Below are positions 9,530-56,304 of a DNA stretch of 64,000 nucleotides, one piece after another. Numbering within the stretch: position 1 is the first letter of the stretch; the number at the start of each line of letters is the position of its first letter. The DNA comes from Haloplanus salinus. Its GTDB lineage: Archaea; Halobacteriota; Halobacteria; Halobacteriales; Haloferacaceae. The notes below the pieces were generated by a model. The model worked only from the letters and a program-made list of their open reading frames with translations. It did no database searches and was not told the DNA's origin. Location: contig NZ_QPHM01000001.1 in the NCBI RefSeq assembly GCF_003336245.1, positions 2,422,113 through 2,486,112 on the forward strand. The letters run 5' to 3'. The translations under genes were made by a program, and so were the position numbers.

Positions 9530-9712
9530 GATATACCCGCGAGGATGGTCGTGTCTCGGTGGTGGGGCCGGATAAGTTTGTTGTCCCGTCCCGTGGCCGT
9601 CGATCGTGTCATGCCGTAGCATACGGCGAGGGCCTACAAACCCCTACCGATCCCGGCCGGATCGGCCGTCGACGGTCGCAAGCCGTTTGCCCGTCGAGAG
9701 CGAGCGACCCGT

Positions 9713-54218: not shown

Positions 54219-54289
54219 GCGCTGGTAGTGTAGTGGTATCACGTGACCTTGCCATGGTCACAACCTGGGTTCAAATCCCAGCCAGCGCA
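54219..54289 (+). tRNA. tRNA-Gly (GCC)
   Basis: Full cloverleaf: acceptor GCGCTGG/CCAGCGC, anticodon stem TGACC/GGTCA around TTGCCAT (anticodon GCC), T arm CTGGGTTCAAATCCCAG, discriminator A, no CCA. A TATA-like TTAATAAT (54183-54190) lies about 30 bases upstream. Confidence 0.98.
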
Positions 54290-54315
54290 GTTCTGCCGAC
54301 GCAAACCGACGAGCG
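54269..54315 (+). repeat. Direct repeat copy 1: tRNA-Gly 3' end plus flank
   Basis: Begins in the tRNA-Gly T arm (GGTTCAAATCCCAGCC) and continues past the tRNA end to GACGAGCG. It matches 54399-54445 at 46 of 47 positions. Confidence 0.85.
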
Positions 54316-54398
54316 GAGCGAGTCGCGTTTCGAGGCGAAATCGCTCCTGTGGATTTGAATCAGGGAGTGACGCGAGCGAAGCGAGCGAAACGACTGTG

Positions 54399-54445
54399 GT
54401 TCAAATCCCAGCCAGCGCAGTTCTGCCGACGCAACCCGACGAGCG
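54399..54445 (+). repeat. Direct repeat copy 2: truncated tRNA-Gly 3' end plus flank
   Basis: A copy of the last 21 bases of tRNA-Gly and the 26 bases after it, 130 bases downstream of the gene. A further shared string AGGCGAAATCGCTCCTG follows both copies (54333 and 54451), so the second copy has lost about 12 bases. The rest of the tRNA is absent. Compatible with an integration-site scar or a tandem duplication. Confidence 0.8.
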
Positions 54446-54554
54446 TCGTGAGGCGAAATCGCTCCTGCCGAGCGACCGAGTCGGACCCACCGGTGAACTT
54501 TTTAGCGTTGGTAGCGCATCTGACGCAGAATGCACTGCTCGTCGGTGACCCAAG

Positions 54555-56159
54555 ATGGCTGAGAAACGAGAGGGTCACGCGTCCGACGCGACCCCCGAGC
54601 GCGTTCTCGACCGGTTAACCGACGGTATCTTCGGACTCGACACCGACTGGCGATTCACGTACGTGAACGAGACGGCATGCGCCATCATCCGTGACGCGGC
54701 CGGCGAGCCGTTCACGACCGACGAACTCCGCGGGCGGAACATCTGGGAGGTCGTCCCCGAAGCGGTCGGCACGACGTTCGAGACGCAGTACCGCGAGGCG
54801 ATGCGGACGGGGGAACAAGTCTCGTTCGACGCACGGTACGAGCCACTCGACGCCTGGCTGGAGGTCCGAGCCTACCCCTCCGAGACGGGGCTGTCCGTCT
54901 GTTTCCGCGACATCACCGAACGCCGCCGCCAGCACGACCGGATCGTGGCCCGTGAGACGATCCTCCGCGAGATATACGAGGCCATCGCCGACCGGGAGTC
55001 GTCGTTCGAGGAGCGGGTCGACGACCTCCTGCGGATCGGTCAGCGCGCCCTCGATACGTCCCACGGGACGCTCTCGCGCGTCCAGGGCGACGAGTACGTC
55101 TTCGAGGTGGTTCGATCCCCCGGCGACCTGGAGGCGGGTGACACCGTCGATCTGTCGGTGACGAACTGCGAGCGGGTCGTCCTCACCGAGGAGACGCTCG
55201 TTCTCGGGAACGTCGCCGAGGACGCCCCGGACCTCGCCGAACGGGCCGGGAACCGGGAGTTGGGGATCAACTGCTATCTCGGCACGCCGGTCGTCGTCGA
55301 CGACGAGGTGTACGGGACGTTCTGCTTCTACGACACGGACGTACGGACCGAACCGTTCTCGGACTGGGAAGTTACGCTCGTCGACCTGATGGGTCGATGG
55401 GTGAGCGTCGCACTCGAACAGGAACTGACGGAGGACCGACTCCGTCACCAAAACGACCGCCTCGAGAAGTTCGCGACGCTCGTCTCCCACGACCTGCGGA
55501 ACCCGCTCAACGTCGCCGAAGGGTGGCTCGAGATAGTGGCCGAGGAGTGTGACAGCGAAGCGATCACACGCGTCGAGAACTCCCACGAACGGATGCGGGC
55601 CATCGTCGACGACCTCCTGTTGCTTGCGCGTGCGGGCCGAGCCGTCGACGACCCCGTCCCCCTCGACGTCGCCACCGTCGCCGACGACGCCTGGTCGCAG
55701 GTCGAGACGGGGGACGCCACGCTGACGGTCGACATCGACGCCGAGATCAGCGGCGATCGAACCCGGATTCAGCGGCTGTTCGAGAATCTGTTTCGGAACA
55801 GCGTGGAGCACGGCTCCACGCGCAACCGGACGGAATCCGGTGACAGCGTGGAACACGGCTCCACGCGCAACCGGACGGAATCCGGTGACAGCGTGGAACA
55901 CGGCTCCACCGACGACGAGTCCCCACTCTCTGTCACCGTCGGCGCCCTCCCCGACGGGTTCTACGTCGCGGACGACGGTATCGGCATCCCCGAGTCCGAG
56001 CGCGAGCACATCCTCGAGTTCGGATACACCACGGCCGAGGACGGCACCGGAATCGGACTCGGCATCGTCGAGGACGTCGCGACGGCTCACGGCTGGCGGG
56101 TGACCGTCACCGGGAGCGAGGCGGGCGGTGCTCGCCTCGAGTTCACCGACGTCTTCTGA
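54555..56159 (+). CDS. PAS-GAF sensor histidine kinase with tandem repeat in the ATPase domain
   Basis: 534 residues: PAS domain (about 10-130, FGLDTDWRFTYVNETAC), GAF domain (about 140-285), phosphoacceptor LVSHDLRNPLNVAEGW (His312) and a HATPase domain with N box NLFRNSVEHG, G1 DDGIGIPESE and G2 GTGIGLGIV. Right after the N box a 15-residue unit SVEHGSTRNRTESGD is repeated 2.5 times (residues 416 to about 452). No membrane helices. Orphan kinase typical of haloarchaea, no adjacent regulator. Start ATG 54555. Confidence 0.9.
   Translation: MAEKREGHASDATPERVLDRLTDGIFGLDTDWRFTYVNETACAIIRDAAGEPFTTDELRGRNIWEVVPEAVGTTFETQYREAMRTGEQVSFDARYEPLDAWLEVRAYPSETGLSVCFRDITERRRQHDRIVARETILREIYEAIADRESSFEERVDDLLRIGQRALDTSHGTLSRVQGDEYVFEVVRSPGDLEAGDTVDLSVTNCERVVLTEETLVLGNVAEDAPDLAERAGNRELGINCYLGTPVVVDDEVYGTFCFYDTDVRTEPFSDWEVTLVDLMGRWVSVALEQELTEDRLRHQNDRLEKFATLVSHDLRNPLNVAEGWLEIVAEECDSEAITRVENSHERMRAIVDDLLLLARAGRAVDDPVPLDVATVADDAWSQVETGDATLTVDIDAEISGDRTRIQRLFENLFRNSVEHGSTRNRTESGDSVEHGSTRNRTESGDSVEHGSTDDESPLSVTVGALPDGFYVADDGIGIPESEREHILEFGYTTAEDGTGIGLGIVEDVATAHGWRVTVTGSEAGGARLEFTDVF
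55800..55909 (+). repeat. 45-bp tandem repeat (2.4 copies) inside the kinase gene
   Basis: Units at 55800-55844 and 55845-55889 differ at one base (GAG/GAA codon); a third partial unit runs to 55909. The unit is a multiple of three, so the frame is kept and the protein gains 15 residues per copy directly after its ATP-binding N box. Confidence 0.95.
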
Positions 56160-56229: not shown

Positions 56230-56304
56230 GCTCGGTTGGTGTAGTCCGGCCAATCATGTTGGCCTTTCGAGCCGACGACCAGGGTTCGAATCCCTGACCG
56301 AGCA
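56230..56304 (+). tRNA. tRNA-Glu (TTC)
   Basis: Cloverleaf with acceptor GCTCGGT/ACCGAGC, anticodon stem TTGGC/GCCGA around CTTTCGA (anticodon TTC), T arm CAGGGTTCGAATCCCTG, discriminator A, no CCA. Confidence 0.97.

Follow-up and report, generated by a model that had tools for sequence, protein, structure and literature searches.

The window, by which we mean the whole stretch of 64,000 nucleotides analysed, comes from the genome of Haloplanus salinus (G000 below). On its plus strand, at 54555..56159, lies an open reading frame of 534 amino acids with a PAS-GAF-HisKA-HATPase_c layout. Pfam places PAS_4, GAF, HisKA and HATPase_c all over their cut-offs, and with both HisKA and HATPase_c among them the product is a histidine kinase. 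The HisKA domain (residues 303-361 in Pfam; 55461..55637, plus strand) carries the SHDLRNP phospho-acceptor box. Further along the same strand are the N box NLFRNSVEHG at 55785..55814, recognised from the sequence and from homologous N boxes, and the G1 box DDGIGIP at 55971..55991, placed by sequence and by a structure model.

The kinase gene sits between two tRNA genes. Upstream is a tRNA-Gly at 54219-54289, and its 3' end plus the DNA downstream of it is repeated 130 bp on (54268-54325 versus 54398-54455, 91% identical), an arrangement like that of a duplicated attachment site or of a tRNA copy in decay. A tRNA-Glu follows directly 3' of the kinase gene, at 56230-56304.

Between the N box and the G1 box the gene contains a tandem repeat. 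Tandem Repeats Finder (TRF), run on the window, reports a period of 45, 2.5 copies and a 98% match at 55798-55909. There are two full units and part of a third, all on the plus strand. They were scored with R1, a covariance model built on the 45-bp unit. Copy 1 (55803..55847, 45 bp, VEHGSTRNRTESGDS) reaches 63.7 bits with an E-value of 6.6e-16 in the window search, and copy 2 (55848..55892, 45 bp, VEHGSTRNRTESGDS) 60.6 bits with 4.7e-15. The partial third copy, 17 bases at 55893..55909, encodes VEHGS plus AC and reaches 24.4 bits. A weak R1 match of 24.9 bits on the minus strand at 9665-9708 is possibly a decayed copy.

Units 1 and 2 differ by a single base, GAG in one and GAA in the other. 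The sequence ENLFRNSVEHG immediately precedes the array, which translates as FRN-SVEHGSTRNRTESGD-SVEHGSTRNRTESGD-SVEHGSTDDE, so that SVEHG recurs in every unit. The original prediction had described a near-identical repeat that adjoins the N box, re-copies SVEHG and was recently duplicated, and all of this stands.

Each unit consists of two palindromes, GTGGARC-ACG-GCTCCAC and ACCGGA-(5 nt)-TCCGGT. In copy 1, hairpin 1 (GTGGAGC-ACG-GCTCCAC) spans 55803..55819, its left part doubling as the last four codons of the N box, and hairpin 2 (ACCGGA-CGGAA-TCCGGT) spans 55825..55841; both are seen in the sequence and in covariation. The hairpins of copy 2, read from the sequence, are at 55848..55864, with one A.C mismatch, and at 55870..55886. 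The partial copy has hairpin 1 only. Folded as DNA, the array region has a z-score of -3.9, and 0 of 200 shuffles were equally stable.

The protein context was modelled with AlphaFold2 on the HisKA-HATPase part of the kinase, using 74 alignment rows. Compared with solved structures, the model matches histidine kinases best, with Z 19.4 and an rmsd of 2.0 over 138 residues. Mean pLDDT is 79.5, and falls below 50 at insert residues 139-162 and 164-169. In model numbering the insert follows the helix of the N box (118-136) and comes before the next strand, at 175-181. The ATP lid is located between the G1 and G2 boxes. The insert, which had been placed near that lid, is thus a predicted disordered loop ahead of the G1 box, and not part of the lid.

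Pairing within the repeat unit

Distinct units were drawn from tandem arrays: 152 of 45 bp and 81 of 48 bp, of which 150 and 81 were aligned (one 45-bp unit with an N and the final list entry were omitted). Because units were extracted only at periods divisible by 3, these sets are no evidence for a multiple-of-3 rule. The tandem pattern scan described below allowed every period from 35 to 49, and the rows inspected by eye were 45 or 48.

Standard pairs make up 97.1% of the 2100 stem cells in the 45-bp set, against 85.6% after shuffling and 24-46% when the columns are slid by 1-3. Two-sided stem changes number 281 versus 93 in shuffled data. For the 48-bp set, 95.4% of stem cells are paired, with 190 two-sided changes versus 66. 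The units are related sequences, which means that stem cells are not independent events.

Within the stems, the third positions of the Val and Ser codons covary. Similarly, Glu GAA pairs with Gly GGT, and GAG with GGC. All of these changes are synonymous on both sides. Protein selection cannot cause covariation of this kind. In hairpin 2 the paired base changes alter amino acids in pairs, as in SPRSQAPED, SPDSQARQD and SPASNTRQD. The stems are kept by paired Watson-Crick changes, and the amino-acid sequence is not what is conserved there.

Departures from standard pairs are G.T in 20 cases and A.C in 57. The rarity of G.T compared to A.C indicates that the palindrome is kept at the DNA level, and not as sense RNA. 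The excess of A.C may reflect codon usage, with GGC favoured over GGT.

Arrays in other kinases

A search that allowed up to 2 mismatches found the 17-base palindrome GTGGARCACGGCTCCAC 19 times in this genome of 3.55 Mb, and the reversed pattern once. Nearly all of the loci read in this genome are in histidine kinase N boxes. Arrays are found at C1:88415, C1:107439 and C1:249295, with single copies elsewhere, and one weak match (C3:75536) is unrelated. The original prediction had suggested looking for similar arrays in other kinases; they are present, in the N boxes of many histidine kinases.

Across genomes, 355 distinct core matches at 284 loci were classed by loose regular expressions as directly in an N box (179), in later units (163) or other (13). 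To the last group belong copies in genes for a CBS protein and for a MenD-like protein, and this led to a wider search for the element.

Haloplanus orthologues of the window kinase carry different numbers of extra units: 0 in G009 and G011, 1 in G002, 1 degenerate unit in G010, 2 in this genome and 2 degenerate units in G003. The predicted in-frame change of length is therefore borne out. In a wider, biased sample of kinases (n=237), one reaches 8 complete extra units, the highest number there.

The window array is a near-identical copy of an array in a paralogous kinase. The tract at 55801..55898 aligns on the plus strand with the N-box array of the kinase at G000:C1:107016-107804, and 97 of 98 positions are identical. 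Identity of the flanks is much lower: 90% in the 30 bases just before the array, 49-53% further upstream and 59-79% downstream. From this contrast it follows that the array was copied between the two kinase genes. Near-identity had been read as a sign of recent local expansion; the recent duplication is confirmed, but with flanks at 49-90% the history is not local alone.

Native N boxes already encode N(A/S)VEHG, which agrees with the left end of the element. In the aligned N-box units, a set chosen by a pattern requiring VEHG or VEHS, hairpin 1 encodes VEHG or VEHS. A hairpin 1 that encodes VEHG(S/T) leaves the N box intact, where other versions would change it, and such a subfamily would fit kinase N boxes. 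In 147 of 183 arrays, a figure confounded by lineage, unit 1 ends in the residue (A/S) that also stands just ahead of the array. Aimed at copy number among strains, a plasmid search with a Haloferax kinase as query gave one partial match, of 13%.

Copies in unrelated genes

The repeat is not confined to kinases, since the element also occurs in many unrelated genes such as those for MsrB and iPGM. A Pfam domain was found in 26 of the 27 element-frame ORFs submitted; the remaining one, L363, has no match. The hosts are an alpha/beta hydrolase, iPGM, an Mre11-like metallophosphatase, MsrB (2), AOR, a MenD-like TPP enzyme (2), a 2-oxoacid acyltransferase, pyridine-nucleotide oxidoreductases (2), a CBS protein, DUF7097 (2), an FAD oxidase/CCG protein, an FAD-binding oxidoreductase, HerA, a CxxCxxCC protein, 5-FTHF cyclo-ligase, a NUDIX protein, an MFS protein, ThiD-ThiN, LonB-type AAA proteins (2), a helicase and a Rieske protein. 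The names Mre11 and MenD come from reading the sequences; the Pfam families are Metallophos and TPP_enzyme.

In all 26 hosts with a Pfam match, the element has the strand and frame of the domain, in a tally that excludes L372 and L379. L350 may be an exception to this sense-frame rule: its sole Pfam match (HIT) is on the opposite strand, and the element-frame ORF measures 93 aa. At most unrelated genes the R1 E-values are 1e-5 or better.

Two hosts in this genome have features of their own. At the end of a ThiD-ThiN gene (L335, G000:C1:1753881-1753970) there are two tandem copies, and a TAG inside the element now terminates the protein. The FAD-oxidase/CCG iron-sulfur gene is present twice (L336 and L340, at G000:C1:1763488 and 2059750), with the element at an equal position in both.

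Empty sites can be seen in orthologues. In 12 Haloplanus genomes, the MsrB site is empty in 10, reading FYDAVDGAVEL-like. Of the two filled ones, G003 has one clean 45-bp insert and G006 three tandem units of different sequence at the equal position. The iPGM site is empty in 9 of 12 genomes; G003 is filled, and G001 and G011 have degenerate inserts at the equal position. Both genes thus show an in-frame insertion that is missing from orthologues. In the Mre11-like gene the loop is variable throughout the 12 genomes: G009 has an element there and G006 a degenerate one. In G002 this gene (L437) has two tandem units of another repeat, SEGSKTPRADGAAV, in the loop where other species carry the element.

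Some copies lie next to what we take to be an IS1341-type TnpB transposon, going by a reading of its protein. Among 14 aligned transposon right ends, 6 have the element some 50 bp downstream of tnpB on the opposite strand, and empty and filled ends differ by exactly 45 bp. The order at this site is AAC, then 45 bp ending in GAC, then GACGGC, which allows a target duplication no longer than 2-3 bp. This non-coding insertion is probably one ancestral event present in several copies. Copies beside tnpB (L326, L327, L366-368) had suggested the transposon right end as the source of the element. This was refuted by close relatives that lack the 45 bp (L449, L451, L455 and L458), which make the transposon a vehicle.

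The ends were compared in 36 copies outside N boxes, 3 of them transposon-type copies and 33 in or near genes. All but one of these, 35 of 36, end in GAC on the right. The left flank is GAC in 21, AAC in 3 and GAT in 3, together 27 of 36, and the hairpin-1 loops are of 16 kinds. Flanking direct repeats range from 0 to 25 bp, with 57 bp at a tandem copy. A MITE would have a target-site duplication, and terminal inverted repeats in common with an autonomous transposon; for the element, the duplication is at most 3 bp at the transposon right end, and the flanking repeats are longer at some gene sites.

Distribution

A scan for the tandem pattern in the genomes of some 85,000 species gave at least 117 stretches, and all 80 among the matches listed are from haloarchaea. 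The same pattern had 0 matches in viral contigs, and a viral origin was dropped on that account.

R1 finds dispersed copies beyond such arrays. This genome has at least 39 matches at E-values up to 0.01, with 150 of 7656 candidates scored. Matches occur in at least 20 of the 24 genomes of the near sample, in at least 133 of 194 haloarchaeal genomes and in at least 42 of 65 genera. In each genome no more than 150 or 32 candidates were scored, which makes these counts lower bounds; R1 was trained on kinase units, so those for non-kinase copies are biased as well. The palindromic unit is thus present in many dispersed copies, as is typical of protein-coding palindromic elements.

A second palindrome, GAGGGATCG-N-AGATCCCTC, which encodes the peptide EGSEIPR, has exact matches in related genomes, at 6 of 473 loci (L045, L137, L146, L306, L362 and L369). 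It is close to the 45-bp element in several cases, and is possibly another coding palindromic family.

Interpretation and alternatives

Single genomes contain many copies of a two-hairpin unit of 45 bp, or 48 bp in a variant, in kinase genes and in unrelated ones, on the same strand and in the same frame as its hosts, and orthologous sites without it exist. The repeat in the window is therefore very probably a tandem pair of copies of a mobile DNA element of haloarchaea that is palindromic, protein-coding and dispersed, and one subfamily of which is suited to kinase N boxes.

The element would insert 3' of an (A/G)AC triplet and itself end in GAC, with no longer target duplication. A length that is a multiple of three, together with a polar and usually stop-free VEH frame, would let it survive as an extra loop wherever the fold permits. 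The subfamily whose hairpin 1 encodes VEHG(S/T) could land in an N box without destroying it. Spread between kinases may then proceed via recombination on the common GTGGARCAYGG sequence, and tandem copies may arise afterwards by recombination or slippage between units.

More tentatively, it is conceivable that the element travels in single-stranded form, with (A/G)AC sites as its targets, and that this mechanism is what keeps the palindrome. This would apply class-wide, to an element pared down to two hairpins and codon-sized by nature (45 or 48 bp), with an N-box-adapted sublineage travelling between histidine kinases.

One refinement of the main reading, rather than an opponent of it, is that a Y1 transposase of the IS200/IS605 type mobilises the minimal two-hairpin element in trans, in the form of single-stranded DNA, and the element would then be a very short relative in kind of PATE. 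The two hairpins, the recurrent left flank and right end, the lack of a consistent target duplication beyond GAC and the clean 45-bp insertion at the transposon end all suit such a process, and Y1 genes are present in 26 of 40 relatives. Yet no Y1 transposase is found in three near-complete genomes that do carry the element, G004 (19 copies), G011 (9) and G027 (7), while G031 and G032 have Y1 and no copies were found there. We consider this version rather unlikely as it stands.

Along the lines of the original prediction, the repeat could be a coding minisatellite of kinases that expands by slippage, with its copy number tuning activity near the ATP lid. The single difference between units 1 and 2 agrees with this, as do the orthologues with 0 to 2 units and the array of 8 complete extra units in the biased sample (n=237). 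It accounts poorly for the copies in the genes for MsrB, iPGM, Mre11, MenD, AOR and others, for an array copied between paralogues, and for a position in a predicted disordered loop before G1 instead of at the lid. Moreover, adjacent units of other arrays differ by compensated changes, unlike pure slippage. Taken together this makes the minisatellite a poor candidate, with little chance of being right. Given the many unrelated genes that carry the element, a tuning role specific to kinases is not needed as an explanation. Most likely the inserted peptide is tolerated as a disordered loop and not selected as a regulatory part, although an effect on kinase tuning is conceivable.

The hairpins could also be conserved mRNA structures, which for example slow translation or stabilise the message. 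The fold is stable, albeit with a z-score computed for DNA, and covariation is strong, but G.U pairs on the sense strand are rarer than A.C mismatches, and on those counts RNA structure was rejected as the thing that is conserved. The element is in addition found antisense to tnpB, past its stop codon, and we regard the mRNA explanation as very improbable.

That the inserts are merely convergent acidic, low-complexity haloarchaeal loops with no common DNA ancestor can practically be dismissed: they are rich in D, E, S, T and G, but they have spacer, stems and the GAC end in common, their R1 E-values in unrelated genes are mostly as low as given above, and their synonymous wobble positions covary, a pairing at the DNA level that already contradicts convergence.

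Relation to known repeats

The haloarchaeal element is not the first of its kind. In-frame palindromic elements in protein genes are known from Rickettsia, Wolbachia and Methanocaldococcus jannaschii, according to the available text of three papers (PMC2996958, PMC10969869, PMC3733652). As those texts present them, the Rickettsia (RPE) and Wolbachia elements are, like the one described here, palindromic DNA that sits in frame in unrelated genes as extra peptide loops. The RPE proper is put at ~150 bp in the accessible part of PMC10969869, a size that the haloarchaeal element at 45-48 bp does not reach, and the latter is set apart by its two separate hairpins. It further differs from the RPE, so far as these excerpts describe it, in residing in Halobacteria, in forming tandem arrays and in having a hot spot in kinase N boxes. 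With the known archaeal protein-coding palindromic repeats it shares being archaeal and being protein-coding.

The GTAG and CGTC families of REPs are likewise small palindromic repeats, some intragenic and some clustered, going by the sections of PMC3733652 at hand. That same text places them mainly between genes and gives them a GTAG or CGTC tag, whereas the haloarchaeal copies that were placed are mostly intragenic and in one frame. For the GTAG (REP/RAYT) type in particular, the unit alignments show no conserved GTAG tag, and a Pfam domain is present in the 26 of 27 ORFs noted earlier.

Closer to home, Haloquadratum walsbyi has PATE and SMR repeats, which are also short, transposase-free and mobile in a haloarchaeon (PMC3119063, here and below in its available portion). 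PATE resembles the 45-bp element in its palindromes, and makes no target duplication. The SMRs are unlike it, being 80-110 bp long with inverted terminal repeats and having other mobile elements as targets. In-frame coding insertion is a feature of the 45-bp element that this portion of the text does not describe for PATE or SMR.

No description of the element was found in the open-access literature, a coverage that leaves subscription papers outside.

Rickettsia is the best-known source of protein-coding palindromic elements. Some haloarchaea are genetically tractable, and a very short two-hairpin version spread among haloarchaea would make insertion, tolerance and loss testable in the laboratory. 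For those who study these proteins, the element accounts for loops that vary among the enzymes and sensor kinases of haloarchaea, and it can mislead alignments of kinases around the N box.

It is also a clean case in which DNA structure, and not protein selection, shapes a peptide sequence. If the element does move as single-stranded DNA, protein evolution would here be partly set by base pairing, and the only reason for joint changes of two amino acids in the insert would be the pairing of their codons in the DNA. Rather than a repeat peculiar to one kinase, the element is a small piece of inserting DNA that provides proteins with extra loops.
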